From a virus, in IMG/VR virus record IMGVR_UViG_3300025120_000051, positions 1-60,330 of that record: a DNA stretch of 60,330 nt. One strand, 5' to 3'. The notes beneath the pieces were generated by a model. It saw nothing but the letters and a program-made list of their open reading frames with translations. It was not told where the DNA came from and ran no database searches. Position 1 is the stretch's first letter, and each line of letters opens with the position of its first letter. The translations under genes and the position numbers were made by a program. Of this stretch, positions 5,815-36,800 are shown one piece after another.

Positions 5815-6116
5815 AATATTTTTCTATATCTATATAATTACATAGTAAAGCGAAGATTTAATAAAAGTATGACACAAGCCTGTTACTAAGATATACTTAA
5901 AGGCTATTGTCACAAAAAAATACGTTAGAAATGTTGAGGTTAAGGGTAGCGCCTACTCTTCACCGTAATTACTTCGTAATAAAAACGCAATATGTAAACG
6001 CCACGGGCCCCTTTTTTATGTGAAACACTGTAGAATTTTCACCTTTTACTTTATATTAATATTTATATATATATAATAGTACTATATAAATACGACTATA
6101 TGTGGATAATAATAAT
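5815..6116. promoter_or_regulatory. Divergent intergenic control region
   Basis: About 300 bases without a gene between the leftward late unit and the rightward early unit. It holds a GC-rich patch (CGCCACGGGCCCC then T6) near 5999-6017, a small inverted repeat ATTAC-TTC-GTAAT near 5970, and a very AT-rich stretch (6045-6090) just before the first conserved element. Promoters for both directions must lie here or close by, because both units start here. I could not place a convincing Bacteroidota -7/-33 box, so the assignment rests on gene orientation. Confidence 0.6.
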
Positions 6117-6119
6117 ATG
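6088..6119 (+). promoter_or_regulatory. Conserved early element, copy 1
   Basis: AAATACGA, 8-base spacer (ctatatgt), then GGATAATAATAATATG. The ATG of a 38-residue frame starts 13 bases after the GG. First of seven copies with an identical 8-base spacer; see findings. Confidence 0.7.
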
Positions 6120-6233
6120 AGAATAAATACTAATAATAATATAGAAGTTGTGAGAGTGTGCGCTGTACTACTAATACAATTCCAAATGTTAAACAAAGTA
6201 TATACTTTTATACAATTCATTTACGAAGCATAA
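6117..6233 (+). CDS. Small ORF, 38 residues
   Basis: Frame MRINTNNNIEVVRVCAVLLI.. ending FIYEA. It starts at the ATG of element copy 1, exactly as the larger genes at 7587 and 9579 start after theirs, and its stop lies within element copy 2. The position supports translation; the composition is mildly hydrophobic. No family is recognised. Confidence 0.4.
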   Translation: MRINTNNNIEVVRVCAVLLIQFQMLNKVYTFIQFIYEA

Positions 6234-6248
6234 TGGATAATAATAATG
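6220..6248 (+). promoter_or_regulatory. Conserved early element, copy 2
   Basis: TTTACGA, 8-base spacer (agcataat), GGATAATAATAATG. The left box is one base weaker than in the other copies. It precedes the 75-residue gene at 6275. Confidence 0.6.
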
Positions 6249-6274
6249 TAACAAATAATAAATAAATAATAACT

Positions 6275-6502
6275 ATGTCAAATTTAATTTCAAAGAGATT
6301 CGTAATAAGAAAATCTCTAATCGGTAAAAACCAAAACATCACTGTTAACTTCAAAAATGGTAAAACAGTAACTTACAATCACGATAAAGTGTATGAAGTA
6401 ATGAAGTCAAAACTAGAAACTATGAATTGTTTCGTTAAGTACAAATCTTACACTTCTTCAACTTCAATTCCAGTAATTGCAAGAGAATTAGTAAGTGCGT
6501 AA
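6275..6502 (+). CDS. Hypothetical protein, 75 residues
   Basis: Begins MSNLISKRFVIRKSLIGKNQ. It is a Lys-rich, beta-prone small protein (NITVNFKNGKTVTYNHDKV) with no recognised domain. The leader AAATAAATAATAACT before ATG is typical of Bacteroidota starts. It is the first sizeable early gene and so may act on host functions, but this is inference from position only. Confidence 0.65.
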   Translation: MSNLISKRFVIRKSLIGKNQNITVNFKNGKTVTYNHDKVYEVMKSKLETMNCFVKYKSYTSSTSIPVIARELVSA

Positions 6503-6612
6503 GTACTACACAAAGTCGAGTTAGTTCCACTTGTTCCCTCGTATAATCAAATATGAATAAGTAAAAATGGTGACTCACCGAACCAGAATAGTACGCAAAC
6601 TGGTGAGATCAA

Positions 6613-6653
6613 TGTAGTAATGGTTTATGTGAGTTCGATTCTCACACTACAAC
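6613..6653 (+). ncRNA. tRNA-like T-arm module A
   Basis: GTGAG-TTCGATT-CTCAC forms a perfect 5-bp stem with a canonical tRNA T-loop (6629-6645). It is flanked by TGTAGT (6613-6618) and ACTACA (6646-6651), which pair as a 6-bp acceptor-like stem, with only 10 bases between the left strand and the T-stem. No D-arm or valid anticodon arm could be fitted. The upstream 6503-6612 is noncoding and holds GGTG-ACT-CACC and ACCAG..CTGGT pairings. Related modules lie at 10082 and 10266. Confidence 0.35.
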
Positions 6654-6654
6654 T

Positions 6655-6744
6655 ATGAATTTTATAATAATAATAGCAACAATGATAGTACTACAATTAG
6701 TACACTTGTTCACAGGAATTAAGTCAAGCGACTTTACAAACTAA
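6655..6744 (+). CDS. Small membrane peptide, 29 residues
   Basis: MNFIIIIATMIVLQLVHLF followed by TGIKSSDFTN. It is one hydrophobic segment with a short polar tail, so if made it would sit in the inner membrane. It starts 2 bases after T-arm module A and is followed at 10 bases by a lipoprotein gene. Too short to assign. Confidence 0.35.
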   Translation: MNFIIIIATMIVLQLVHLFTGIKSSDFTN

Positions 6745-6753
6745 AATAATGAT

Positions 6754-6909
6754 ATGAAGAAAACGATAGAAGAAAAAATAGTAAAAGGTTTAGTAGTGTA
6801 TACTTTGTTAATAATAGCAATATTTACACTCTCATCATGCGGTAGTACTCAATATGGAATCTGCCCAGCGTACAGTAATCACAATACAAATACGACAGTA
6901 AACGGATAA
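6754..6909 (+). CDS. Small predicted lipoprotein, 51 residues
   Basis: A Lys-rich start (MKKTIEEKIVKGL), a hydrophobic stretch VVYTLLIIAIFTL and the lipobox LSSC-G at residues 26-30 make a type II signal peptide; the mature part (GSTQYGICPAYSNHN..) would be about 23 residues with one more Cys. It would be lipidated at the cell envelope. The C-terminus (..NTNTTVNG) and stop are encoded by conserved element copy 3. A role in blocking superinfection is possible but unproven. Confidence 0.5.
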   Translation: MKKTIEEKIVKGLVVYTLLIIAIFTLSSCGSTQYGICPAYSNHNTNTTVNG

Positions 6910-6919
6910 TAATAATATA
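6888..6919 (+). promoter_or_regulatory. Conserved early element, copy 3
   Basis: AAATACGA, 8-base spacer (cagtaaac), GGATAATAATAATATAA. The next ATG (6931) is 27 bases after the GG, with an AAATAAATAAATATG leader. It overlaps the 3' end of the lipoprotein frame. Confidence 0.7.
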
Positions 6920-6930
6920 AATAAATAAAT

Positions 6931-6996
6931 ATGTACGAAGCGATAGAACACTGGAAAGAATATATAAAAGAAAAACAATTAAATAATAATAAATGA
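6931..6996 (+). CDS. Tiny ORF, 21 residues
   Basis: MYEAIEHWKEYIKEKQ then LNNNK, a short amphipathic helix. It lies directly after element copy 3 and overlaps the next ATG by 4 bases (ATGA). Position supports translation, but the length makes it uncertain. Confidence 0.3.
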   Translation: MYEAIEHWKEYIKEKQLNNNK

Positions 6997-7127
6997 AAAG
7001 AAAATTTCAACACTTAGCAGTCAACACAATACTAATTGGATTAACAGCGATATTCGCTTTCGGTTTTGTAAACATACTATATCACTTAGTATTTAATAAT
7101 CCTGTAATAACTTACGGCGGATGGTAG
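6993..7127 (+). CDS. Small membrane protein, 44 residues
   Basis: MKRKFQHLAVNTILIGLTAI then FAFGFVNILYHLVFNN. It has a basic N-terminus and one long hydrophobic segment, so it is a single-pass inner-membrane peptide. It is coupled by an ATGA overlap upstream and a 7-base overlap downstream. No family is recognised. Confidence 0.45.
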   Translation: MKRKFQHLAVNTILIGLTAIFAFGFVNILYHLVFNNPVITYGGW

Positions 7128-7234
7128 AATTACTAGACAAAATAGCACAAGAAGAATATGGCGAGTTTGGTTTCACTACGTGTACTGACGAGCAACAACT
7201 AGAAATAATAACTAATAATTTAATAAATAAGTAA
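7121..7234 (+). CDS. Small acidic protein, 37 residues
   Basis: MVELLDKIAQEEYGEFGFTT then CTDEQQLEIITNNLINK. It is helical and acidic. It starts inside the preceding gene's last codons and is followed one base later by the next ATG. Typical of compact early phage gene blocks; function unknown. Confidence 0.45.
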   Translation: MVELLDKIAQEEYGEFGFTTCTDEQQLEIITNNLINK

Positions 7235-7235
7235 T

Positions 7236-7370
7236 ATGCAGTATATTTTAACATGCAATAACGGAAAGAAAATAGATATGTCACACTACATACTATTACA
7301 AATGGAAAAGAAAATAACTAGACAAGATGTTCTTGACAGAATAGAGTTCTATAAAAGTACAAACAAATGA
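7236..7370 (+). CDS. Small hypothetical protein, 44 residues
   Basis: Begins MQYILTCNNGKKIDMSHYIL and ends FYKSTNK. It is hydrophilic and probably helical in its second half (LLQMEKKITRQDVLDRIEFY). It overlaps the next ATG by 4 bases (ATGA). Function unknown. Confidence 0.5.
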   Translation: MQYILTCNNGKKIDMSHYILLQMEKKITRQDVLDRIEFYKSTNK

Positions 7371-7579
7371 GATATAGTAAATCAAATATGAGTTGGGAAC
7401 AAGCATTTAAAGAATGTGCTGACTCAATCAACAAACACGCTTACGAAATGAAAGTAACTAATGAGTTATTTCCAAGAGAAGACGGTACACTATGGGTAAA
7501 CTGGATAGGTTTATCTCAACAAAATAGAGACAAAGTGTATAAACAATGTTACGATACAAATACGAATAAAGCAGGATAA
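7367..7579 (+). CDS. Hypothetical protein, 70 residues
   Basis: Begins MRYSKSNMSWEQAFKECADS. The C-terminus ..DTNTNKAG is encoded by conserved element copy 4, so the last codons and stop are fixed by the element. No domain is recognised; the central LWVNWIGLS.. is mildly hydrophobic. Confidence 0.6.
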   Translation: MRYSKSNMSWEQAFKECADSINKHAYEMKVTNELFPREDGTLWVNWIGLSQQNRDKVYKQCYDTNTNKAG

Positions 7580-7589
7580 TAATAATATG
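7558..7589 (+). promoter_or_regulatory. Conserved early element, copy 4
   Basis: AAATACGA, 8-base spacer (ataaagca), GGATAATAATAATATG. The ATG of the next gene (7587) is the last triplet of the element. Confidence 0.7.
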
Positions 7590-7769
7590 AATAAATTAAA
7601 ACTAACAAACTACAGCATCGCAGGTATACCTCAAACAGCTATACTATCTATTAAAGATGAAATAATTACACTAAATTTAACTACAAACAGTAGCTACTGG
7701 GACAAAGAAATAAAGCAATACAGGTCACTATCTACTTTTTACACAATAAATAATAGAATATATGCATAA
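7587..7769 (+). CDS. Hypothetical protein, 60 residues
   Basis: Begins MNKLKLTNYSIAGIPQTAIL and is beta-prone with alternating polar and hydrophobic residues. It starts 13 bases after the GG of element copy 4 and overlaps the next gene by 8 bases. Function unknown. Confidence 0.55.
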   Translation: MNKLKLTNYSIAGIPQTAILSIKDEIITLNLTTNSSYWDKEIKQYRSLSTFYTINNRIYA

Positions 7770-8013
7770 AAAACAAAAATACTTTCACGAATTATCTTTA
7801 TACGAGATGTTTAAGCAACATGATCACACTTATCAATACGCTGATGATCACTCTTACTGGAAACGAGGTACAGAGCAGAAAAGAATAATCAATGAAAAAA
7901 TAGAACAATCAGGTGGTTGGAATAAAGAAATGGTAGCAGAGTGGAACAAATTCTGTCCAAAACCAATGCAAATGTCAGAAGAATGGCTAGAAAACTACTT
8001 ATTAAAACAATAA
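7762..8013 (+). CDS. Hypothetical His/Trp-rich protein
   Basis: 83 residues beginning MHKKQKYFHELSLYEMFKQH, with the His/Tyr-rich stretch DHTYQYADDHSYWKRG and a C-terminal helix EEWLENYLLKQ. It overlaps the previous gene by 8 bases. No conserved enzyme motif is evident; the clustered His/Asp could bind metal. Confidence 0.6.
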   Translation: MHKKQKYFHELSLYEMFKQHDHTYQYADDHSYWKRGTEQKRIINEKIEQSGGWNKEMVAEWNKFCPKPMQMSEEWLENYLLKQ

Positions 8014-8017
8014 ACAA

Positions 8018-8575
8018 ATGAGAACAATATATAAAGGCGATGCTCGCTATGAAAAAATCAAAGAGCAAATGGATCTACTAAGTATTACTGATGTAACTAC
8101 TGAAAGACAAGTGCTAAATGGTACGATAGTTTGGCGATTACCATACAAATCAAGAGGTAATTATGTAGAATATGGTGCTTTCGCAAGTGGATATGTAAGA
8201 AATCAAGGTAATCAGTGTCACTCTAATTGGCAAATCAACAAAAGATATGTTGGTGAACCTGAATATTATCCTGACTATGTATGGTGTGATAAAACAAATC
8301 AAAGTGTAAAAACAGGTAAGTTTAACAGGTTTTACAGTAAGAAATGTGTTACAATACCCATAGAAATTGACAGATTAGAGTATTTGATGAAGTATATTGT
8401 TAAAAATGAGTTTATCAAGCGTGCTAAAATGTTAGAAACAGATTTTGTACCAAAGTGGAAATATGATGACTTAAAAAACTCAGCAAAAGCTCTGGAGCAC
8501 GTTACTAACGCATACCATAGACCACCAAGTGAAGTAAAAGTGATAATAAATGGACATAGATATAACGTAATATGA
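8018..8575 (+). CDS. Hypothetical protein, 185 residues
   Basis: Begins MRTIYKGDARYEKIKEQMDL. The middle is aromatic and Asn-rich (GNYVEYGAFASGYVRNQGNQ) and the C-terminal part is helical. It is the largest of the small early genes and overlaps the next by 4 bases. No family is recognised; it could be a host-takeover protein given its position. Confidence 0.65.
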   Translation: MRTIYKGDARYEKIKEQMDLLSITDVTTERQVLNGTIVWRLPYKSRGNYVEYGAFASGYVRNQGNQCHSNWQINKRYVGEPEYYPDYVWCDKTNQSVKTGKFNRFYSKKCVTIPIEIDRLEYLMKYIVKNEFIKRAKMLETDFVPKWKYDDLKNSAKALEHVTNAYHRPPSEVKVIINGHRYNVI

Positions 8576-8682
8576 GTCCGTGGGAAATAGTAAAACAAGT
8601 AGCGGGTCACATTTATACTGATGAACAGATAGATGAGATGACTTTGGCAGAATGTGAAGAGATATTAACAGCAGAGTATTAA
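8572..8682 (+). CDS. Small hypothetical protein, 36 residues
   Basis: MSPWEIVKQVAGHIYTDEQI then DEMTLAECEEILTAEY, a two-helix acidic peptide. It starts with ATGA coupling to the gene upstream. Its last 7 codons (from base 8662) lie in the 79-bp duplicated unit. Confidence 0.45.
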   Translation: MSPWEIVKQVAGHIYTDEQIDEMTLAECEEILTAEY

Positions 8683-8819
8683 TAAAAATTAAAAAAAGTA
8701 ATTAACAAATGAAATTCAACATACAAGATAGAATAGTGCTATATTAACAGCAGAGTATTAATAAAAATTAAAAAAAGTAATTAACAAATGAAATTCAACA
8801 TACAAGATAGAATAGTGCT
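8662..8819 (+). repeat. 79-bp perfect tandem duplication
   Basis: 8662-8740 is repeated exactly at 8741-8819. The unit holds the end of one gene, the intergenic leader and the first 32 bases of the next gene, so a truncated second start (8709) precedes the complete one (8788). The unit length is not a multiple of three. Confidence 0.95.
8709..8747 (+). pseudogene. Truncated duplicate of the 8788 gene start
   Basis: The first duplicate unit encodes MKFNIQDRIVL, then runs into the second unit and stops after 12 residues. It is a remnant created by the 79-bp duplication; the intact gene follows at 8788. Confidence 0.8.
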
Positions 8820-9000
8820 AGACGAAATGGTAGACACTTTCAAAACACAGATGATCAAGCATCATCACGAATCAGAGTTAGATGGTAAAAGACCAATAAT
8901 AACTAAAGAGTATTGGCTTCAAATGATAGACGAAGTACAGATTAAAATCGACAACTTCACGACAGTTAAAGCATTAAAACAAAGTAATAAATATAGATAA
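8788..9000 (+). CDS. Hypothetical protein, 70 residues
   Basis: Begins MKFNIQDRIVLDEMVDTFKT. It is predominantly helical with a His-rich turn (IKHHHESELDG). It starts in the second copy of the 79-bp duplication. Function unknown. Confidence 0.6.
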   Translation: MKFNIQDRIVLDEMVDTFKTQMIKHHHESELDGKRPIITKEYWLQMIDEVQIKIDNFTTVKALKQSNKYR

Positions 9001-9001
9001 T

Positions 9002-9190
9002 ATGAGTAAAGGTTTTTACATAGTAGAACTTAGAGAATATACAGAGTCAGGCAACTACATAGAGTTTGACGCAGAATTTGAAACTAAAGAAGAGGCAATA
9101 AAGTATGCAAAAGAGAATAAAAACGATCTTTTTGATATACTAGAGTATAAAAACGGTAGAACACACACTCCTAAAAGCATAAGCATATGA
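9002..9190 (+). CDS. Small DUF-like beta/alpha protein, 62 residues
   Basis: MSKGFYIVELREYTESGNYI, then EFDAEFETKEEAIKYAKENK. The strand-then-helix pattern with EF.TKEEAI.YA is common in small phage proteins with a ferredoxin-like half-fold. It overlaps the next gene by 4 bases. No function is recognised. Confidence 0.6.
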   Translation: MSKGFYIVELREYTESGNYIEFDAEFETKEEAIKYAKENKNDLFDILEYKNGRTHTPKSISI

Positions 9191-9540
9191 GCACAGAAGA
9201 ATTAAAAAAAATATACTTAGAACATTATGGTTCTACGTTAGATACAATAGATTACAAAGGTGGATATGATTTTGTAATGAATCAAGAATATACAGCAGAT
9301 GGTCACGATGTGTTTTTATGCAGCGATGGTATATCTCCGGTGAGTATAAGTGAAGACGTATATTATTACGCTCATGATTTAACAGATATACTTAAAAATG
9401 CTATACACAACGGTCAAAAAATATACTGTGGTGAGGAGATATATGACGAGTGCTACATTAAAGACGAATGGAAAGAATGGTGTCTTGAAGATAATTTAGT
9501 TGATTATAATGATAATGACGAGTTAGTTAAGTGTGAATAA
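9187..9540 (+). CDS. Hypothetical acidic protein, 117 residues
   Basis: Begins MSTEELKKIYLEHYGSTLDT and is rich in Asp/Glu/Tyr (..VYYYAHDLTDIL.. then DECYIKDEWKEWCLEDN). It is strongly acidic, so a DNA-mimic role is conceivable but not supported by any motif. ATGA coupling upstream; element copy 5 follows 10 bases after the stop. Confidence 0.6.
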   Translation: MSTEELKKIYLEHYGSTLDTIDYKGGYDFVMNQEYTADGHDVFLCSDGISPVSISEDVYYYAHDLTDILKNAIHNGQKIYCGEEIYDECYIKDEWKEWCLEDNLVDYNDNDELVKCE

Positions 9541-9549
9541 ATACAATTC

Positions 9550-9581
9550 AAATACGATAACAGTCGGATAATAATAATATG
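9550..9581 (+). promoter_or_regulatory. Conserved early element, copy 5
   Basis: AAATACGA, 8-base spacer (taacagtc), GGATAATAATAATATG. The ATG at 9579 is the start of the zinc-finger gene. Unlike copies 3, 4, 6 and 7 it lies wholly outside the upstream frame, so its conservation is not due to coding. Confidence 0.75.
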
Positions 9582-9791
9582 ACAAAATGTAAATGTAATA
9601 ATATAATACCTCCGCAGCGGATAGCACTCGGTTATAAAGTTTGTGTTAACTGTAGCAGTACGGAAGCATATGGCTGTGTTAATATAACATACCATAAAAC
9701 GGGCAATACAATTCAGATATTACCAAAAGCCCAAGCTGCCAGAATACGTAAGCTATCCGCTCGTAGAGGTTATGGCACATGCCTAAGATAA
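9579..9791 (+). CDS. Zinc-ribbon-like small protein
   Basis: 70 residues. MTKCKCNN places C-x-C near the start and KVCVNCSSTEAYGC a C-x2-C plus another Cys about 18 residues later, a plausible zinc-binding knuckle. The C-terminus is basic (AARIRKLSARRGYGTCLR), which suits nucleic-acid binding. It begins at element copy 5. Possibly a regulator; the family is not recognised. Confidence 0.6.
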   Translation: MTKCKCNNIIPPQRIALGYKVCVNCSSTEAYGCVNITYHKTGNTIQILPKAQAARIRKLSARRGYGTCLR

Positions 9792-9804
9792 TAAGTAAAT
9801 AAAT

Positions 9805-10017
9805 ATGAGTGATTCAATAAAAGCATGGCACGAAATGCAAGAAGAAAATAAAGTATCTATATCCGTAGATAAAGATTTAATACTAGTAAATAAACTACTA
9901 GCGTTGAGTAACGAGCAAAAGCTATTAGATATAGATCAAGCTTTAAAAGAATATGAAGGTAATGTTGTAGATAAATGGCAACTTATCAACAGAATAGAGA
10001 AAATAATGTCGCGTTGA
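9805..10017 (+). CDS. Hypothetical helical protein, 70 residues
   Basis: Begins MSDSIKAWHEMQEENKVSIS and is helical in its second half (LSNEQKLLDIDQALKEYEGN). It is the last gene before a ~390-base region with RNA-like structures. Function unknown. Confidence 0.6.
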   Translation: MSDSIKAWHEMQEENKVSISVDKDLILVNKLLALSNEQKLLDIDQALKEYEGNVVDKWQLINRIEKIMSR

Positions 10018-10029
10018 GGCGTGACAAAC

Positions 10030-10078
10030 TCCTTCACGGGAATACACGGTTGCGCTCGTGCTGAAAACAAGTGAAGGA
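10030..10078 (+). ncRNA. Extended hairpin
   Basis: TCCTTCAC (10030-10037) pairs perfectly with GTGAAGGA (10071-10078); within it CACG pairs with CGTG. No U-run follows, so it is not a terminator. It lies 4 bases before T-arm module B and may be part of the same RNA. Confidence 0.4.
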
Positions 10079-10081
10079 TTA

Positions 10082-10167
10082 GGGAGTGATAAGGTAAGTA
10101 AAGCGAATAAATAACAGGTTACCGAGTCCAAATGCTTTAAACGGCGGTTCGATTCCGCCCACTTCCA
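10082..10167 (+). ncRNA. tRNA-like T-arm module B
   Basis: GGCGG-TTCGATT-CCGCC (10143-10159) is a perfect T-arm. GGGAGTG (10082-10088) can pair with CACTTCC (10160-10166) as a 7-bp acceptor stem with one G-U. The 86-base span would suit a class II tRNA, but no anticodon arm with U33 fits; GGTAA..TTACC forms the only D-arm-like stem. A degenerate or interrupted tRNA is possible. Confidence 0.35.
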
Positions 10168-10173
10168 CAATAA

Positions 10174-10272
10174 ATGAATCCGAAGAGGTCAGTGTGCTTG
10201 ACACTGAACAAAACAAGCGAACACATGTCAGGCGAGTACTTCACAGAAAAACTAACGATGACTAATAACTAG
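10174..10272 (+). CDS. Possible small ORF, 32 residues
   Basis: MNPKRSVCLTLNKTSEHMSG then EYFTEKLTMTNN, preceded by an AATAA leader. It overlaps a hairpin and the left acceptor strand of module C, so either the frame or the RNA reading may be accidental. Confidence 0.25.
   Translation: MNPKRSVCLTLNKTSEHMSGEYFTEKLTMTNN
10189..10207 (+). repeat. Inverted repeat, 7-bp stem
   Basis: TCAGTGT-GCTTG-ACACTGA is a perfect hairpin with a 5-base loop. No U-run follows. It is inside the possible 32-residue frame; its role is unknown. Confidence 0.4.
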
Positions 10273-10384
10273 GTATGGTTAAGCGATTACCGGAGCGTAA
10301 GCTCGATCGTGGTGCGCAGAGCGTAAGCTCGATCGTGGTGCGCAGACTACCGACGGGTATGAGGTTCGATTCCTCACTAGTTAC
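10266..10384 (+). ncRNA. tRNA-like T-arm module C
   Basis: TGAGG-TTCGATT-CCTCA is a perfect T-arm, and TAACTAG (10266-10272) pairs perfectly with CTAGTTA (10377-10383). Between them are GGTA..TACC with GGTTA in the loop (D-arm-like), GAGC-GTAA-GCTC (GNRA tetraloop) and GGTG-CGCAGAC-TACC. The length is 119, or 93 without the 26-bp duplication. The GNRA hairpin and the lack of U33 are odd for a tRNA. Confidence 0.35.
10295..10346 (+). repeat. 26-bp perfect tandem duplication
   Basis: 10295-10320 is repeated exactly at 10321-10346, inside T-arm module C. It contains the GNRA hairpin and half of the next stem. See findings for a possible assembly origin. Confidence 0.95.
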
Positions 10385-10404
10385 TAACTTTAAATTAAAT
10401 AAAT

Positions 10405-10587
10405 ATGATTAGTAAAAACGAGTTTCAAGCGTACGTAAACGTACAAGAGTCAGGTGTAACAAACATGTTCGATGTAAGGACAGTATCTTCTCTATCTGGT
10501 TTGTCAAAAGCAAAAATAATGGATATAATGAAAAATTATAGCCAGTATCTAGGTACGTACATTTTAAATACGAATGAAGTAGGATAA
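10405..10587 (+). CDS. Hypothetical protein, 60 residues
   Basis: Begins MISKNEFQAYVNVQESGVTN. The second half (TVSSLSGLSKAKIMDIMKNY) has a helix-turn-helix-like rhythm and may bind DNA. The C-terminus NTNEVG is encoded by conserved element copy 6. ARAA-type leader AAATAAATATG. Confidence 0.55.
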   Translation: MISKNEFQAYVNVQESGVTNMFDVRTVSSLSGLSKAKIMDIMKNYSQYLGTYILNTNEVG

Positions 10588-10597
10588 TAATATAAAC
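10566..10597 (+). promoter_or_regulatory. Conserved early element, copy 6
   Basis: AAATACGA, 8-base spacer (atgaagta), GGATAATAATATAAAC. The next ATG (10609) is 27 bases after the GG, as for copy 3. Confidence 0.7.
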
Positions 10598-10608
10598 AAA
10601 TAAATAAT

Positions 10609-10842
10609 ATGTCAAAATTAAAAACCGTCTACGACAATCTATTGCCCGACGTTAAATCAAGCTTGCAGGCTAGTGCTAGAAAGTACAACTCTGCTAAAAG
10701 ACTTAAGTATACTCTTATGTCTAAAATGATGTGGTCAGAGTTGACAATCGATGAGATGAGAGACGTTGTAACTTACGGTAACTTAAACAGTTGGGAATTA
10801 GACTGTTACAGCTTTATGTATGGTGAAAAAATCGTGAAATAA
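10609..10842 (+). CDS. Hypothetical protein, 77 residues
   Basis: Begins MSKLKTVYDNLLPDVKSSLQ. It is all-helical and basic (ASARKYNSAKRLKYTLMSKM), then Trp/Asp-rich. It shares one base with the next start (TAATG). Function unknown. Confidence 0.6.
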   Translation: MSKLKTVYDNLLPDVKSSLQASARKYNSAKRLKYTLMSKMMWSELTIDEMRDVVTYGNLNSWELDCYSFMYGEKIVK

Positions 10843-11099
10843 TGAAAGCTACAAAACTACCCAAGTGGTTTAAAGGTTCTAAATATGAATCTGGAGACAC
10901 AGTAACAAATCCGTTTAGCGGAGAAAAATATGATTTAACAGGCGAAGAATTAAGTATGTACGATTTTATAATTGGTTGTCAATTAGTAATGGAAAAATTA
11001 CCAAGATCAATATCAGCAACCCACGTTAATGACTTTCAAAAAGGTCTTGACTGGTTCAGAAAAAATAACGCCAAAGCATATATGGTCTTACTAGACTAA
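10842..11099 (+). CDS. Hypothetical protein, 85 residues
   Basis: Begins MKATKLPKWFKGSKYESGDT. The phrase VTNPFSGEKYDLTGEELSMYD resembles a small phage family of unknown function seen in other marine phages. It is coupled to the upstream gene by TAATG and followed at 15 bases by a tRNA. Confidence 0.65.
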   Translation: MKATKLPKWFKGSKYESGDTVTNPFSGEKYDLTGEELSMYDFIIGCQLVMEKLPRSISATHVNDFQKGLDWFRKNNAKAYMVLLD

Positions 11100-11114
11100 T
11101 TATGCTATACATTT

Positions 11115-11186
11115 TGCGCGGTAGAGCAGCGGTAGCTCGTTGGGTTCATATCCCAAAGGTCGGAGGTTCGAACCCTCCCTGCGCAC
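11115..11186 (+). tRNA. tRNA-Met (CAT), initiator-like
   Basis: A full cloverleaf can be drawn: acceptor TGCGCGG/CTGCGCA (7 pairs, one G-U), linker TA, D-arm GAGC-AGCGGTA-GCTC, anticodon arm TTGGG-TTCATAT-CCCAA with anticodon CAT, variable AGGTC, T-arm GGAGG-TTCGAAC-CCTCC, discriminator C. No CCA is encoded. The A11-U24 pair in the D-stem and three G-C pairs (GGG/CCC) closing the anticodon loop are hallmarks of bacterial initiator tRNA. The U1-A72 pair is possible, whereas cellular initiators have a mismatch there. Confidence 0.93.
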
Positions 11187-11200
11187 CTAAAATAATAAAT

Positions 11201-11545
11201 ATGAAGAACACAGATTTTGATATCTTAGCAAGCAAGTTAGCCGACTTAGCTAAAGATACTATGAAGAAAAAAGGCCCAGAATACACTAATGAGCACACGG
11301 ATGTGCTAAACAACTTTAAAGCTACGGGTAAAAGACTAAACATCTCACCCATCAAAGTGTGGAGTATATTCATGGACAAACAAATACAAAGTATAATGGC
11401 GCATGTCAATAATCCTAATCTTGATAAAGCTGAAAGTATAGACTCTAGATTTGCAGATGTAATCAATTACTGTTATCTAGGTAATGCTTTGTTTAACGAA
11501 AGAGATTCAGGAGCAATTAAAGAAGTATTCAACGATGTCAACTAG
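11201..11545 (+). CDS. Nucleotide-metabolism-like phage protein (DUF1599/Nmad1-like)
   Basis: 114 residues from MKNTDFDILASKLADLAKDT. An earlier in-frame ATG would read through the tRNA and is rejected. The pattern KGPEYTNEHTDVLNNFK.., SPIKVWSIFMDKQIQSIMAH and SRFADVINYCYLGNAL matches the helical family in which ..K..DY....D.l.NF.. and ..R..D.inY..l.. are conserved. This family often neighbours nucleotide-modification or pyrophosphohydrolase genes. The exact activity is not established. Confidence 0.55.
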   Translation: MKNTDFDILASKLADLAKDTMKKKGPEYTNEHTDVLNNFKATGKRLNISPIKVWSIFMDKQIQSIMAHVNNPNLDKAESIDSRFADVINYCYLGNALFNERDSGAIKEVFNDVN

Positions 11546-11891
11546 AGCTCAGGTTAGATTCGCGACACGCGAAGAAGGCGTTTCTTTTAATGAACACCCA
11601 GATAAAATACACGCACAATTCTACGTGCACCATGATGGTTATCCTGAAGGATTAGGCCTGCAAATAGCTTGTTCAATATCAAAAGATTCACCTGTTACAA
11701 GTTTCTATGGTGAAATAGAACACGTACAGGATATGCACGGTGATTTAGATTATATATACTATATATGGTCTAACTATGACAAAGAAACTTGGATAAGTAT
11801 ATTTGAAACTTACGAAAATAAGTGTATATTTGTAGGTAAACCAGATAGGTTAATAGCAAAATACAAACTAAATACGAACGAAGCTGGATAA
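11535..11891 (+). CDS. Conserved phage protein, 118 residues
   Basis: Starts at ATG 11535 (MSTRAQVRFATREEGVSFNE), overlapping the upstream gene by 11 bases; the longer frame from 11484 would overlap it much more. MSTRA..RF followed by HHDGYPEGLG is a widespread phage family of unknown function. The C-terminus (KLNTNEAG) is encoded by conserved element copy 7. Confidence 0.75.
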   Translation: MSTRAQVRFATREEGVSFNEHPDKIHAQFYVHHDGYPEGLGLQIACSISKDSPVTSFYGEIEHVQDMHGDLDYIYYIWSNYDKETWISIFETYENKCIFVGKPDRLIAKYKLNTNEAG

Positions 11892-11901
11892 TATACATAT
11901 G
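11870..11901 (+). promoter_or_regulatory. Conserved early element, copy 7
   Basis: AAATACGA, 8-base spacer (acgaagct), GGATAATATACATATG. The ATG of the next gene (11899) again begins 13 bases after the GG although the AT run has drifted. Confidence 0.7.
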
Positions 11902-12186
11902 ACAGACGACGAATTAATCAAGCTAGCTGATCTTATTGCAGACAGACTAATAGCTCATAGAAATGACAAAGATGTTGCTTGGCATGACAAAAGCCCTGTA
12001 ACTATCGAAGATCTCCTCGAAGATACGCCTTTAAGTTTCAAAGAAACTCCAGAAGAGCATGTCATCGGTGAGATTGCTCGTCTTACTACGCTGCTATTCA
12101 TGTATCAAGAACAAGAAGAATACAGAAAAATGCAGATAATACAAAATAAAATTAACAGATTACAAAACAAACTAGATAAATTATGA
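11899..12186 (+). CDS. Hypothetical coiled-coil protein, 95 residues
   Basis: Begins MTDDELIKLADLIADRLIAH. The acidic middle (DLLEDTPLSFKETPEEH) is followed by a long helix with a coiled-coil heptad pattern (EQEEYRKMQIIQNKINRLQN). It overlaps the ligase gene by 4 bases and is the last gene of the small-gene block. Function unknown. Confidence 0.65.
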   Translation: MTDDELIKLADLIADRLIAHRNDKDVAWHDKSPVTIEDLLEDTPLSFKETPEEHVIGEIARLTTLLFMYQEQEEYRKMQIIQNKINRLQNKLDKL

Positions 12187-13903: not shown

Positions 13904-14512
13904 ATGTCACAAGATAGAAACATGAAATGGCTGAATGATAACCGCATCGTATATAGGAGAGATCCAATTACGGACAAGGCCACTGTATCTAATAACCAAT
14001 ATGACTTTTATCAAAACGGCACACATGAATGTTATCATTTATTTAACAGTAAAGCTAAAATAACTACATATAAATCATTAAAATGGCATTTTTTAGTATT
14101 ATATTACTTAAATAGTAATGACGATTTGCAAGATGTGTTTAAATTTATTGCGGATAAAGACAATGGCTTTGTAACTTTTTTTATGAAGCAAAACGTGTTG
14201 GAAAACATGATAAAAGACGTTATTAAGCAAGGTGGTGAACCTCCAGCAAACAAGCTACGTAAAGTAGTTTTTAAAATGCACAGTGGTCTAAGTATTAACG
14301 AGAAGCTTAGCATTGTGGGTAAACTAATAGGTAGAACATCTCAAGTTGATGACGAGGCAATATACCAATGTATGATTGACTTGCACGACATGGGAAAAAA
14401 GATAACAATAAGTAAGCTTGCAAATTTACTAAACTGTTCGTCAAGAACTATCCATCGCAACATGAATAAAATTTTAAAACAAGAAAAAAAACAATTAAAT
14501 GAAGAGTTATAA
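13904..14512 (+). CDS. Helix-turn-helix protein, possible regulator
   Basis: 202 residues. The N-terminal two thirds are unassigned. The C-terminus (ITISKLANLLNCSSRTIHRN) is a clear helix-turn-helix: helix, SS turn, recognition helix with R-T-I-H-R, then a basic tail. It ends within the start of the sigma-factor gene (14-base overlap), so the two are co-translated. It may control the switch between early and late transcription together with the sigma factor, or act in replication initiation. Confidence 0.65.
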   Translation: MSQDRNMKWLNDNRIVYRRDPITDKATVSNNQYDFYQNGTHECYHLFNSKAKITTYKSLKWHFLVLYYLNSNDDLQDVFKFIADKDNGFVTFFMKQNVLENMIKDVIKQGGEPPANKLRKVVFKMHSGLSINEKLSIVGKLIGRTSQVDDEAIYQCMIDLHDMGKKITISKLANLLNCSSRTIHRNMNKILKQEKKQLNEEL

Positions 14513-15269
14513 TATAAAAAACTATGTTATATATAAAACAGAGGTAGCAAAACTAATTCACGCATTGCCTAGTTATGGAACAGATTATCATAATTATTCA
14601 CGCGAGCAGTTAATTACTTTATTTTTACCTTTAGTAGAAAATATAGCTAGAAAATTTTCAACAAGTCAACAAGCTTCAGGCGTTATGACAATTATGGACC
14701 TAATACAATGTGGTAGCATAGGTATAACACAAGCTGTAGATAAAATAGACTGGGCAAGATTGTCTGTGTCAGAGGATAAAGAAAAAACAATGAAATCTTT
14801 TCTATCTAAACGAATAAGAGGTGCAATACGTAGAGCTGTAGATATTAATCGCGGTGACATGAGAATACCCGAACATAAGTTAAACGAAATTCGCAAAAAT
14901 TTTGGTAAAGATAAAAAAATGGTTGCAATGTTTTTTAATAGTATATTTTTAAGCATTGACGAGAAACCAAAAAATGGAAATGAAGACGATATGGTATACC
15001 AAATACCAGACAAGTCAGAGCCATACAACGTAGGTTTGTTAAACGCTTATTTAGACAGTTTGCTAAAAAAACACTTATCAGAAAAAGAGTATCAGGTTTT
15101 AGTTTTAAGCTATGGTTTAGATTGTGAAAAACAACCAGCTAACGAAATAGCAAAAAAACTAAACATAGAAGGCAGTAGTGCCTACGTGAGAGTTTCACAG
15201 CTTAAAAAACAAGCTGTAGAAAAACTAATTCAAAACGTAGACCACTCGCAAGTGCTTGATTATCTATAA
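14499..15269 (+). CDS. RNA polymerase sigma factor, sigma-70 family
   Basis: 256 residues. Region 2 is visible at about residues 40-112 (LFLPLVENIARKF, then MDLIQCGSIGITQAVDKIDW and FLSKRIRGAIRRAVD). Region 3 start is RGDMRIPEHKLNEI. Region 4 is near residues 190-245 (LSEKEYQVLVLSYGLD, then NEIAKKLNIEGSSAYVRVSQ). It should direct host core RNA polymerase to phage promoters, probably the leftward late unit. It is coupled to the HTH gene upstream, and no phage RNA polymerase is visible. The assignment is firm; target promoters are unknown. Confidence 0.9.
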   Translation: MKSYNIKNYVIYKTEVAKLIHALPSYGTDYHNYSREQLITLFLPLVENIARKFSTSQQASGVMTIMDLIQCGSIGITQAVDKIDWARLSVSEDKEKTMKSFLSKRIRGAIRRAVDINRGDMRIPEHKLNEIRKNFGKDKKMVAMFFNSIFLSIDEKPKNGNEDDMVYQIPDKSEPYNVGLLNAYLDSLLKKHLSEKEYQVLVLSYGLDCEKQPANEIAKKLNIEGSSAYVRVSQLKKQAVEKLIQNVDHSQVLDYL

Positions 15270-30783: not shown

Positions 30784-33690
30784 TTAATTTTTTTTACGCC
30801 TAACATTAACTCTTCGTCTACTTTTTGTTCTAGAGTTCGATTTAACCCTGCGTACTTCTTCTGGGCGCATAGAATCATATAGCTTTTCAAGTTGTTCATC
30901 TGAAAGACCTAGCTCCCATTCACTCCAACCTGACAACAAAGCTGCTTTAGCCCACATTTCGTTATCTTCGTCCATAGCATCTTGAACATTTTTCATCTTC
31001 TTAAGTATTCTATCCACTGGTAGATTAGCTGTAGCTGACAACACTTGAGCTCCAGCCATGTAAGCTGGATTGTCTAAACCAAATCCACCTTCTTTCATTT
31101 CATCTAAATCGTAATCTAAAGATCTAAACGCGGATCTTACTTTAGTAACTTTAGATGATATAGGTGGCGCAAAGTCTAACGTTTCCCAAGCGGCATTTTC
31201 GTACTTTGGATTACCTTTAGAATGTTCTTGTGATAACTTAAATAAAACGTTTTTAACTGTAGACACCGCAGCACCGCCAATTCCAAGCCCCCTTAATTGA
31301 GAATCAAGCATACCGTTTATCATATTTGATGATTTATCAATAATCTGTTGTTGATCATCAGGGTCTTCGTCAAACCCAATAGCAAACATTGCTTGTTGTA
31401 AAGTGTTAAATATAAGGTTTTGCACAAAGCCATAGTATATTATTTTAGATAAATTACTTTTTGCATCTCCTCTCCCGTTAGCTAAATCTTGTATTGCTCT
31501 TTTTTGTAATCTAGTATACTGCATTGGTGTGTTAGCAAAAGCTAAAACAACTCTACCTAAACCAGAGGCTTGTTGCGCTGATATTCTATCAGGTCTACTA
31601 GACTGTTGAGACTCTTCGGTTATTTCTCTAAAATCTCTAAAAGCTTTTTCTTTAGCTTTAACCTCTGACAAACCTTCTTTTAAGTAGCTATTTATTCTGT
31701 TTCTATAAAAAGAAGCACCACCACTAGATATTGCAAAACTATCAGCGCCTCTTGTCATTACAAAACCTTTGTTAAGTAAATAAGATATAGCTCCTTTAAC
31801 ACCACCTCTACTAGACATGTCTGCTATTTCTGATTCGTTAATATTTATCTTTAAACCATCACGCCTTTGCACTAAGTAATCTGAATTAAACAACTCTTTG
31901 AAATCTTTCCAATATTGTTTTTGATTACCAAAAGCTTTAGCTGCTGCTAAAGGGTTGTTATCTTTGAAGTTTACGTAGTTTATAGCTGATATAGTTTGTA
32001 GTACGGCTGATCTAGAGTTTAAGAACATAATAGCACCAACAGAGTTGTTTGTCCAGTCTAACACTTCGTTTTCTAGTCTTTGGAATACTCCACCTAGCTT
32101 TTTTCTGTTAGAACCACTTTCCATTCTTTGTAGTATATTTTCTAAGGCTTTTCTAGCATTACCACCATATGCTGCTTCATACTTATTTAGGTTTGCTTCA
32201 GAAAAAATTTCATTTTTATTTTCAATCCACTGTTGAAGATGTTTTTTTCTTTTAGTTGTATTAATACCTTCTATCATATCAGTAGTAATAGTTCCGGCTA
32301 ACCAACCAACTCCAGGTTTAGTGTAAGCATCTCCTTTGTGAATAAGCATTAATCTATCAGCAAAGTCTTTTAAATCTTTGTTTGATTTAACAAATCCATC
32401 TATTTGTTTTAAATCTCTTTTAGATATACCAGGTATTTCCATTTTTTGCTTATTCCAAATATAAACTCTTAAAGCTTGTTCTTTTGTATAACCAGCAGCT
32501 GCACCTTCTTTTAACTTATCTCTCAAGCCTTTTGGTACAGATTTGATTTCTTTTTTTAAAGCATGAAAATCTTTCATTAACTGATGCCTTTCTTTAGTTA
32601 TTGCATTTTCACCTCTAGCGTATGGATCTAGTAAGTTTGTTTTGTACCATGCCATTTGAGCATCTCCGGTTTTACCCTTACCTAAAGTAGGGTAAATTAA
32701 GCCCACAAAGTCTTCAGCAGTTGGTGGGATCCAAAATTTAAACTTACCCTTAGTAGCGCCTGCTACCTCACCTTTTGCTTTGCTATACACTTTCTCAGCT
32801 CCAATACCAGTTTTGTTTTCTAAAACATTATTAAACTCTTTACCAAGATCTCTACTCATTAAAGCTTGTTGAACTTCAGATTTAACATCTAGGTTTTGTA
32901 AAATATCTTTAACAGCTTTAACATTTTTAATTGCATCATCAGCAAAGTAAAAATCATTATAACCCTCTATATATTTATCTTTAACCCAATCAGCCTTCGC
33001 TTTTGCTGCTCCGTTCTCAAGTCCAGTTATATTTTCTATAGGAATTTCTAATCCAACACCTTTTAAAAATTTGTTAATAGCTATAGCGGATGCTTGAGGT
33101 CTAGCTGTTAATACAAATATATTCTTATTCCCAAACTTACCTTCTCTTTTGACAGCTAAATCAAACAAAGGCCCTTTCTTACCATCAATAACCTTGTTAA
33201 ATTCTGAAAAATCATACTTAGCACCTTGCTTTGTTAGCTTAGCATCTTGTTTAGCAAACTCTGTTGCGTTTATTTTAAACTTATTACCATTAGGCATGGT
33301 AACAATTATTTGACTATTAGTTCTAGCTAAAGTGTCATCAAAATCAAAAATACTTATACCTCTTTTTTCTTTTTTTCTGTTTCTACCTTCTTGCAGTATC
33401 TTATCAAGCCTGTTTGCATCTACTATTTTTTCTAAGTTTTTAGCCTGTTGCTTGTATTCAGAAGACATTATCTCTTGATATAACGTCTTTTTAAATTTAC
33501 TACTAACACTATATATGTTTTTAGCTAGCTCTAGGTTTTGCCCAAATCTAAATATATCAGCATTACTAGTTCTAGCGTCTATTGTTTCTCCTTTTGAGTT
33601 TTTGATAAAGTCTATCATATTAAATTCAGCTAATCTTCCATAAACACCTCTGTATTTACTCAAGCTTTTACCACCTTCAACACCCCACAT
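30784..33690 (-). CDS. Internal virion polyvalent protein, C-terminal part with HAD domain
   Basis: 968 residues as read, but this is the C-terminal third of one ~2,910-codon gene interrupted by the 115-bp duplication at 33598-33827; its first 31 residues repeat those before the break. A HAD phosphatase-like domain is near residues 110-270: IFDFDDTLA (Asp 116, Asp 118), FVLTARPQ and FYFADDAIKNV. Further on are long helical regions, membrane-prone stretches (KIIYYGFVQNLIFNTLQQAM) and a very basic C-terminus. Probably ejected into the host with the DNA. Confidence 0.85.
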   Translation of the reverse strand: MWGVEGGKSLSKYRGVYGRLAEFNMIDFIKNSKGETIDARTSNADIFRFGQNLELAKNIYSVSSKFKKTLYQEIMSSEYKQQAKNLEKIVDANRLDKILQEGRNRKKEKRGISIFDFDDTLARTNSQIIVTMPNGNKFKINATEFAKQDAKLTKQGAKYDFSEFNKVIDGKKGPLFDLAVKREGKFGNKNIFVLTARPQASAIAINKFLKGVGLEIPIENITGLENGAAKAKADWVKDKYIEGYNDFYFADDAIKNVKAVKDILQNLDVKSEVQQALMSRDLGKEFNNVLENKTGIGAEKVYSKAKGEVAGATKGKFKFWIPPTAEDFVGLIYPTLGKGKTGDAQMAWYKTNLLDPYARGENAITKERHQLMKDFHALKKEIKSVPKGLRDKLKEGAAAGYTKEQALRVYIWNKQKMEIPGISKRDLKQIDGFVKSNKDLKDFADRLMLIHKGDAYTKPGVGWLAGTITTDMIEGINTTKRKKHLQQWIENKNEIFSEANLNKYEAAYGGNARKALENILQRMESGSNRKKLGGVFQRLENEVLDWTNNSVGAIMFLNSRSAVLQTISAINYVNFKDNNPLAAAKAFGNQKQYWKDFKELFNSDYLVQRRDGLKININESEIADMSSRGGVKGAISYLLNKGFVMTRGADSFAISSGGASFYRNRINSYLKEGLSEVKAKEKAFRDFREITEESQQSSRPDRISAQQASGLGRVVLAFANTPMQYTRLQKRAIQDLANGRGDAKSNLSKIIYYGFVQNLIFNTLQQAMFAIGFDEDPDDQQQIIDKSSNMINGMLDSQLRGLGIGGAAVSTVKNVLFKLSQEHSKGNPKYENAAWETLDFAPPISSKVTKVRSAFRSLDYDLDEMKEGGFGLDNPAYMAGAQVLSATANLPVDRILKKMKNVQDAMDEDNEMWAKAALLSGWSEWELGLSDEQLEKLYDSMRPEEVRRVKSNSRTKSRRRVNVRRKKN

Positions 33691-33827
33691 GTTTTCAGCA
33701 ATTAATAATGCAGTTTTTGATAAAGTCTATCATATTGAACTCAGCTAATCTTCCATAAACACCTCTGTATTTACTTAAGCTTTTACCACCTTCAACACCC
33801 CACATATTTTCAGCAATTAATAATGCT
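33598..33827. repeat. 115-bp near-perfect tandem duplication
   Basis: 33598-33712 and 33713-33827 are the same 115 bases with four internal differences, all synonymous in the coding frame (E, F, L, N codons). Because 115 is not a multiple of three, it shifts the frame and splits the polyvalent gene. See findings. Confidence 0.97.
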
Positions 33828-36800
33828 GACTCTAAACTTTGCTCACTACTTGATTTTAAGTGCTCGTACTTAGAGTATTTTTTAAATACATGTGTTTCAG
33901 CTTCATTTTTAAAGTTTTTACTTTTAAACTTTGTGAAACCACCAATAGCGTTATTATAGCCACCAGCTTTTACAAGCTGTTTAACTTCTTTTTTAATATT
34001 AGGGTTATTAAAATAACCTTGTTTTGGAATCCAAAAATAACTTCCTGGAGATAAGTTTCTTTCACCTTTGGTTCCTTGTTGTGAGTTTTCTTTCTTTAAC
34101 TTAAATACATGGCCTAATCTATTATCTTTAATTTTTTGCGTTGAACCACTATGAACCCAATGCTCTAACGTCCTGTTAAACGCATCGTAAAAAACATCTA
34201 ATTGCTTTGCACCTGGGTTTTCTTTGTAATATTCAGCAAGTTGTTCTCTACCTTTTTTACCACCTACTGCAGCTGCTTTTTTCCAAGCAGTAAAGTTGCT
34301 AGCGTTGTAAGCTCCTTTTATTGACTTCCAGTCTATCGACTCTACTAGTTCAATAATTTCTTTTGGTAAAGGGTTTTCACCTTTAACAGATGTAGAAGGT
34401 TTTGTTAAAGCTTCTTTGAGTGAGTTTATTTCTTTAGTTAAAGAAGCAGCATTACCTTTGCCTAAAGTTTTGTTGTGTAAACCAACAAGATCCATCATTA
34501 ACGCCATATTACCGTCAATTTTATTCTGTGTAATAGCTGGCCATAAATCAAATATAGTTTTAGAATTTTTAATATAATTTCTTCTTAAACCTTCACTTTC
34601 TTTAGATTGAAATTCTTTAGGACCCATGTTAGCGTACTCATGGTTAGTCATAACATCTGAAAATTCAGAACCTTTAACGCCAGAAACAAACCTAGTTTGA
34701 GCATCAGCTCCAGCTAAAGCTTTATTAGCTATAGATAAGTCTAATAAATCTTTAATTCTATCATATGCTTGTTCGCCATATTTTGCAATAAAAGCTTTTG
34801 GGTTTCTCTCATGTAATCCCATCGCTGCTAATTGTTCAGCTTTCTGTATTTTATTAGTACCGAAAGCTTTGCCAAGATCATTAGAATTTAGTAATTCAGA
34901 CTTACCACCAGCAATTTGGTTGTACAAAGCATCTCTAGCTGATTGATCTCTTAATTCAGGGTTAACAGTTTCGTTACCTGGTTTTTCTAAATAATTTCTA
35001 ACAACTTGATTTGTTATAGCTCTACCTGTTTCAGATATTAAAGCATCTATAGCTCTTATCTGTTTACTTTGAGCTTTTATTTTAGTTTGTTTAAAATCAA
35101 CCTTACCTTCTGGTGTTAAAAATATTCCTAGCTTTTCTAAAAACTGTGTTTTATTTAAGTTTTTTATTTTATTTTGAACTGGTAACCCTGCGGTTTTACC
35201 TGTCTTACTTGACGATGCTTCTGCTGCTACACCTTTTCTACTAGCCGCATTATAAAGCAAACCGTTTAATAACGAAGGTTCTATCATTGTAGATAAACCC
35301 TCTATTTTAGATTTACCTGTTTTTAACATAGCGCCGTGAGGCAATAAGTCATACAATGTTTTCCAGTTTTCAGCTATGTATTCTGATTTTTGTTTTGAGT
35401 TTTTACTAGACTCTCCTTTAACTACATCAGTTCTACCTCCAAACATCTCCATTGTTATATCTGGCTTTAAATCTAATAAGTCTCTATAGTTATATTTTTC
35501 TATGTTTTCAATATCAATCTTACTTTCTATAGATTCAACGTGCTTATCTGTTAGTTTTAAACTTTCTTTTAAGTTTATTAAGCCAGCCTCAGCTTGTCTT
35601 GGCCCAACACTTCCACCAGATGAAACACCACCTTCAAGTTGTAAGAAACTACCATCCGCGTCTATGCTAACAGTTTGTATTTCTCTTCCTTGAGTAAACC
35701 TATCATATATAGCTCCAGATCTTCCACCTCCAAAACCACCACCACCATAAAGACCTTGGATTAAGTATGATCCAAATTCACCTTTGTCAGGAGTGTATGT
35801 TTTAGATAGCTTAACAACTTCTAATAATGTTTCTTGTTTAAAATCAGATCTTTCACCTCCTTTAAATGGATCAAACTTGTTGTTTACAAAGCTTTCTACA
35901 AGTAACATGTTATTAGCTATAAGTCTTCCTTCTAAAGCTAAAGAACCACGGTTGTCTAGATTTTTCTCTTTCTCAAGCTTTCTAGCATCAAATAACTTAT
36001 CAGAAAGATCTTTATTTTTTTGTATTGTTAATTCGTTTTTAACATCTCTAGAATTCAAAGCTTCTCTTTGTGAGTTTTGTTGAATATCTAGTTTTAATAA
36101 ATCAACTTCATTTAATTTATATCTACCATCTTCAACTTTAAGATCTGATAGCGGATTATCTTTAACAAACCTAGTTAGTTTGTTTGAATACCCAACATCT
36201 AAACGTATATCTCTAGTTAATCTCGCTACATACCCTATAAAATCTTCTGCTGTTTTAATTTTCGGTTGGTAACCAGGTATCATTTCTTCAAAGAAACTAG
36301 TGAAATTAGCTTTAACCTCTTTTACAGCACTAGTAGCATATAGTTCGTAATACAAGCTTGGGTTTGAAAAAGCCTCTAACATGTAAGCTAGATATTCTTC
36401 GTTTTTAATTTCACGACCTCTACCACTTTCTAGCAAATCTATTATTTTCTTTAAAGACTCTGGAGCTTTATCATAATCTTTAGTTAATGACTTACCTATT
36501 TGTTTATCATACTTATGAAACACTTCTGCCATGTTTTTCTTAAACTGTAGTGTCATACCTGGGTTTGCTGATTCTATAGCTCGAAAAGCAGCGTGACCAA
36601 TCATCTCGTGTATTTCTTTACCTTTATAACCCTCTTTGTTGTATACTTCTTTATTAAATATTATAAGGTCTTTACCTCCTTTTCCTCCACCTTGTAGAAA
36701 CTGAGCTGGGCTCATGTTTTTACCACCGTGAAAGTTTTTATTTTTACCATCTACAAATCTAACATCATACCCTTTGTACAAAAACTCACCTTTTTCGTTT

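Follow-up and report, generated by a model that had tools for sequence, protein, structure and literature searches.

The stretch analyzed here, referred to as the window, comprises 60,330 nucleotides of viral DNA (IMG/VR virus record IMGVR_UViG_3300025120_000051, positions 1 to 60,330). Between 6.0 and 11.9 kb it carries seven copies of a short repeated element, upstream of small genes and all on the plus strand, and the seventh copy stands at the head of a gene run for a DNA ligase, a glycosylase, a protein with a helix-turn-helix (HTH), and a sigma-70-family factor (Table 1). Analysis of the window and of related viral contigs suggested that the seven copies are probably promoters for this phage sigma factor, with the HTH protein as a candidate co-factor. 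The original prediction, which was made from the letters of the window, had already confined the element to one block, and this was borne out; the description of the block as early was its own wording.

Table 1. Positions of the element copies, with predicted transcription starts (+1), and of the two regulatory genes in the window. ORF, open reading frame; box1, TACAAA; box2, AATACGA; -10, GATAAT.
Feature	Position	Strand	Score (bits)	Details
Copy 1	6080..6117	+	24.7	box1 6080-6085, box2 6089-6095, GATAAT 6105-6110; predicted +1 A6117 = A of ATG (38-codon ORF)
Copy 2, degenerate box2 ATTTACGA	6211..6248	+	22.5	-10 6236-6241; predicted +1 G6248; start-stop ATGTAA 6246; ORF from 6275
Copy 3	6880..6917	+	32.6	-10 6905-6910; predicted +1 A6917; next ATG 6932
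Copy 4	7550..7587	+	28.9	-10 7575-7580; predicted +1 A7587 = A of ATG; ORF 7587-7769
Copy 5	9542..9579	+	34.5	-10 9567-9572; predicted +1 A9579 = A of ATG; ORF 9579-9791
Copy 6	10558..10595	+	27.5	-10 10583-10588; predicted +1 A10595; ATG 10609
Copy 7	11862..11899	+	42.3	-10 11887-11892; predicted +1 A11899 = A of ATG; ORF 11899-12186
HTH protein, 202 aa, proposed co-factor linked to box1	13904..14512	+		overlaps start of sigma gene; Pfam HTH_11 weak
Sigma-70-family factor, 256 aa, regions 2 and 4	14499..15269	+		Pfam Sigma70_r4 7e-6, Sigma70_r2 1e-4

Six of the seven copies listed by the original prediction were exact matches to AAATACGA-N8-GGATAAT (6088, 6888, 7558, 9550, 10566, and 11870). 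The second copy proved to be degenerate (ATTTACGA at 6219), though it still scored 22.5 bits against a matrix derived from relatives. The number of exact copies under chance was 0.00 on average, and none of 100 dinucleotide-preserving shuffles contained any. In the proposed matrix scan of the genome and its relatives, all seven copies scored 22–42 bits and every other site in the window scored below 10 bits, while ten Markov-shuffled windows held no site of at least 8 bits. A gapped 5-mer scan, for which the motif was not chosen beforehand, ranked TACGA-N8-GGATA at the top on the plus strand; the same scan revealed no motif of comparable strength on the late strand. For copies 1 to 7, the first usable ATG downstream of GG lies at a distance of 13, 40, 28, 13, 13, 27, and 13 bases, respectively. 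Thus, four copies rather than five stand at 13 and one rather than two at 27, the remaining distances being 28 and 40. In copy 2, an ATG at +11 is directly followed by TAA and is hence unusable.

Relatives were retrieved through the DNA ligase, and this ligase-anchored set yielded 347 element copies, 345 of which share the strand of the ligase and the early genes. Typically, 5–12 copies were found per relative where the region was fully covered. The comparison indicated that the element extends further upstream than was originally seen, to a TACAAA at -37 to -32 relative to the predicted start. The longer form, TACAAA-N3-AATACGA-N9-GATAATA with fixed spacing, was present in more than 100 uncultured viral contigs, and its TACAA and TACGA form a tandem direct repeat, 11 bp apart. 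The pattern read from the IMG/VR matches was TTACAAACTAAATACGA, 8 free bases, and (G)GATAATA. With spacers of 4–14 bases allowed, 125 of 142 matches had a spacer of 8, against 1–3 matches at each other length seen. The invariant 8-base spacer claimed for the window was thereby confirmed, and the check for a loss of spacing in related phages found it kept.

Near-invariant blocks were ACAAA, AATACGA, and GATAATA among 421 distinct copies; these come from related genomes and are hence not independent, and no probability is attached to the position statistics. The first base of GG was most often G (56% of copies), followed by C (23%) and A (19%), and was typically fixed within a genome. Because this base varies by genome, the signal is the invariant unit GATAATA, nine bases after TACGA, and not GG. 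This bears on the T7-type promoter that the original prediction had considered, at which a single-subunit phage RNA polymerase would start transcripts at GG. The spacing is rigid, and TACGA..GG resembles T7 TACGACTCACTATAGGG, a likeness that is probably due to chance. However, neither the window nor any of 26 long relatives gave a PF00940 match, whereas the T7 control was recovered at 9.9e-110 in the same search; the earlier remark that no such polymerase is visible was correct. In addition, the N8 is unconserved, no conserved TATA precedes GG, and the purine rule described below places the predicted 5' ends 13 bases after GG. A T7-type promoter is thus highly improbable. A crAss-like or N4-like virion polymerase was also considered and rejected on the absence of the D-x-D-G-D motif from the long ORFs of the window, and the largest ORFs gave no polymerase match in Pfam or PHROG.

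GATAAT is one base from TATAAT, and two sister genomes carry TATAAT at that place. Position 40 of the element, 7 nt after GATAAT, was a purine in 99.5% of the 421 copies, compared with mostly about 60–70% at nearby positions. When only copies that differ in the sequence that follows were counted (371), this base was A in 219, G in 150, and T in 2; position 39, just before it, was T in 70% and G in none. All seven window copies have A at position 40 except copy 2, which has G. Guided by this almost invariable purine 7 nt past the -10-like box, we placed the predicted +1 at position 40, so that GATAAT lies at -12 to -7 and AATACGA at -28 to -22. In 94 copies, position 40 is also where an ATG begins; ATGs that start 1–4, 6, or 8 nt after GATAAT are very rare. 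Position 40 is the A of an ATG in window copies 1, 4, 5, and 7, and it lies 14–27 nt upstream of the ATG in copies 2, 3, and 6. RNA from four of the seven copies should, with this placement, start on AUG and be leaderless. About 90 of the 421 copies form a subclass with ATGTAA (6246-6251 in the window), in which the G of the start-stop occupies position 40 and the leader is longer and A-rich.

An RNA-level signal, such as a translation-initiation element or a processing element with cleavage at GG, would account for the short fixed ATG distance in many copies. A-rich leaders also fit initiation in Bacteroidetes, which works without Shine-Dalgarno sequences (PMC6847099). Against this, the ATG distance was variable in more than half of the copies, GG was unconserved, the conserved blocks lie 22–36 nt upstream of position 40, one box can be TATAAT, and the near-absolute purine 7 nt past the -10-like box has the look of a start site. 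The translation signal named by the original prediction is thus disfavored, and an RNA-level explanation as a whole seems very unlikely. Another candidate is conservation through coding, by a common C-terminal peptide YKLNTNxxG and stop of the upstream genes. An upstream ORF overlaps the element in the frame of this peptide in 99 of 421 copies, but each of the three frames is represented and some copies fall outside ORFs, the deviation rate is about 4% both inside and outside ORFs, and third codon positions are hardly freer. The earlier view that coding is not the cause of conservation therefore stands, and the coding explanation has a negligible probability.

The sigma factor of the window matched FliA (8.6e-11) and SigA in PDB profile searches. 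All 26 long relatives that bear the element have an ortholog. So do 25 of another 28 contigs, which were picked solely for carrying the motif; among the three that do not, one contig stops short of the sigma gene, and the other two matched by chance and have no box1. No ortholog was found in five relatives without the element or in 12 wrong-spacer control contigs. Every relative with the element and an intact relevant region encodes a sigma-70-family factor. In our own alignment to E. coli sigma-70, the -12-contacting residues Q437 and T440 are replaced by Gly and Arg, and this replacement would presumably suit a non-T base at -12. Among 50,697 cultured-phage records, the window sigma had at most a distant partial match and the HTH gene none. 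A promoter for a phage sigma factor, which the original prediction had listed as an alternative, is the reading picked out by the sigma co-occurrence, the -10-like box, and the purine rule. If the element were instead the binding site of a phage repressor, replication protein, or packaging protein, dispersed multiple copies of a tandem TACAA/TACGA repeat would be natural. The single orientation upstream of genes, the -10-like box with a purine at the right distance, and the sigma co-occurrence would all be unexpected, and we regard a binding site of this kind as hardly likely.

Across 84,980 bacterial and archaeal species, 15 exact-pattern matches were obtained, and only two of them were the real element. 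Both lie on contigs in metagenome-assembled genomes of Flavobacteriaceae, one with four copies in a row, and we read both contigs as phage. The element-bearing viruses are probably Flavobacteriaceae phages. The named relatives MW202828, elemo, phi13:2, phi38:1, and Gundel_1 held no element at or above 13 bits. These data also bear on recognition by a host sigma factor (sigma-A, extracytoplasmic function, or sigma-54) alone, with no phage factor. Immediate-early genes normally require a host-read promoter, and the rigid layout is superficially sigma-54-like. However, a regulon of the host should show in host genomes, and the element's presence tracks the phage sigma. Moreover, flavobacterial sigma-A promoters carry TAnnTTTG at -12 to -5 (PMC9723704); this -7 box, although it belongs to the same probable host group, is absent from the element and occurs nearby at chance level. 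The host-promoter alternative of the original prediction is accordingly unlikely. A host-type promoter upstream of copy 7 (TTG-N19-TATATTTG at 11803) was rejected as not regular in relatives.

The HTH of the second protein is C-terminal. Its structural model had a predicted local distance difference test score of 88, the HTH_11 match was weak, and the model had no solved-structure match at E<=0.001; the protein had one viral match, which is unnamed. The gene was present in 35 of 36 element-bearing genomes and in none of five without the element. Of the 107 loci where the sigma gene is complete, 105 carried it. The two full-sigma loci that lack it are also the only two in which box1 contains TCGAA instead of TACAA. 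This change, from TTACAA to TTCGAA, was seen only in the HTH-less clade. With the altered box as bait, twenty contigs were obtained; none had the HTH gene and seven had the sigma gene (five of them new), the thirteen sigma-less contigs being possible fragments and uninformative. Copies of this clade follow the same purine rule at position 40, and in the sigma tree the altered-box members form one clade inside the HTH-bearing group. The loss of the HTH gene and the change in box1 tie the HTH protein to box1, either through binding of box1 or through an altered target of sigma region 4. The recognition-helix residues of sigma vary widely among HTH-bearing genomes while TTACAAA is constant, which favors direct reading of box1 by the HTH protein. 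The HTH helix motif xRT(I/V)xR is strongly conserved.

Taken together, these findings suggest, with a probability of roughly three in four, that the seven signals are promoters of the phage sigma factor and its HTH co-factor acting on host core RNA polymerase. Host core polymerase with the phage sigma, assisted by the HTH protein, would initiate at each copy. Sigma region 2 would read GATAATA as a -10 box, and TACAAA and AATACGA would be read at rigid spacing by sigma region 4, the HTH protein, or both. The RNA would start at the purine 7 nt after GATAAT, giving a leaderless mRNA at the four of seven copies where the ATG begins with this purine and a short A-rich leader elsewhere. As copy 7 heads the run containing the HTH and sigma genes, the system should feed itself. 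We infer transcription itself, its start site and timing, and the assignment of proteins to boxes from sequence. If the phage sigma is required, the genes behind the element may be middle rather than early genes. A wider proposal is tentative, and we place it slightly short of even odds: the phage sigma would replace that of the host, a dedicated HTH subunit would set the specificity of the -35 region (box1 TTACAA), the loss of this subunit would have accompanied a rewrite of this box to TTCGAA throughout the copies of a genome, and, with many +1 positions on AUG, leaderless mRNA would be a standard mode of expression in these probable flavobacterial phages.

Several observations weigh against promoters of a phage sigma factor with an HTH co-factor. 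The sigma gene, the HTH gene, and the element all occur in one virus clade, and their co-occurrence could partly reflect shared ancestry. When the base at -13 was compared with sigma and HTH residues for covariation, clade structure confounded the comparison and nothing decisive emerged. On the tree, the HTH loss is a single event, that is, one loss and one box change. No host-type -7 box was enriched near the elements to explain the first production of sigma. Furthermore, one near-perfect copy, scoring 45 bits, was seen in an unrelated lineage of tailed phages (loci including L280 at 8914, L288 at 8270, and L038 at 3018). This copy has T at the predicted +1, and no orthologous sigma was found in the fragments of that lineage that were searched. 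It overlaps two genes, a DUF6378 gene at the stop and a thyA or methyltransferase gene at the ATG, and the thyA and methyltransferase versions diverge directly after GGATAATA. The copy may be borrowed sequence or may have a different use. Small one-copy contigs (L033, L038, and others) were considered as tiny single-stranded DNA phages; this was rejected, as their genes look like fragments of the tailed-phage lineage.

Other features of the window were also noted. A giant late protein (33695-39631, minus strand) contains, from about residue 1241, a sigma-region-2-like stretch, NMLLVESF...FDPFKG...YTPDKGEFGSYL, and also a zincin-like HEMIGH motif. Delivery of a sigma factor in the virion was considered and rejected, the region-2-like stretch not being conserved in relatives. 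Tandem duplications of 115 bp (33597-33826), 79 bp (8662-8819), and 26 bp (10293-10344) may be assembly artefacts or real, and the first of them divides a giant late ORF into parts of 1978 and 968 aa. An 89-nt RNA-like stretch at 10082-10170 (plus strand) matches both ends of the transfer-messenger RNA (tmRNA) family without an mRNA-like middle. Its tmRNA-family score was 39.6 bits, under the gathering score of 47, and its fold (z -2.3) includes a T-arm and an acceptor-like stem. At about 6620-6653 and 10349-10392 (plus strand), stretches resemble by eye the 3' half of a tRNA, with T-arm and acceptor; neither ARAGORN nor Rfam made a call.

The system was not described in the open-access literature searched. 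The recurrence of the element in more than 100 metagenomic viral contigs makes the proposed phage gene-control system open to testing, and the predicted starts can serve directly as a list of candidate transcription start sites for these genomes. The sigma factor and its predicted promoters are a candidate host-orthogonal pair for a phylum with unusual standard promoters, and the HTH loss with a coordinated change of promoter box is a natural experiment in the retuning of phage promoter recognition. The model predicts frequent leaderless mRNAs in these phages; in one flavobacterium, 5.5% of mRNAs are leaderless (PMC9723704).

Among known systems, the middle promoters of T4 combine a -10 box with a MotA box that has its centre at -30 and lies 12+/-1 bp away from the -10 box (PMC2988021, PMC6755090). 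The layout here is similar in having a -10 box, a phage-specific box overlapping the -35 region, and a phage DNA-binding protein as the proposed co-factor. However, T4 uses host sigma-70 with AsiA, whereas here the phage would supply the sigma factor; no AsiA-like gene was identified, and no search aimed at AsiA was made. The distance to the -10 box is 9 bp from the end of box2 and 19 bp from that of box1, and the consensus differs from that of T4. Phages phiEco32 and 7-11 encode a sigma factor with low-copy phage-specific promoters, some of them upstream of its own gene (PMC4331800), and the predicted arrangement in the window resembles theirs in these respects. They belong to another virus group and host phylum. 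Unlike in phiEco32 and 7-11, the element described here is tripartite with strict spacing, it is accompanied by a linked HTH gene, and many of its predicted starts are leaderless.

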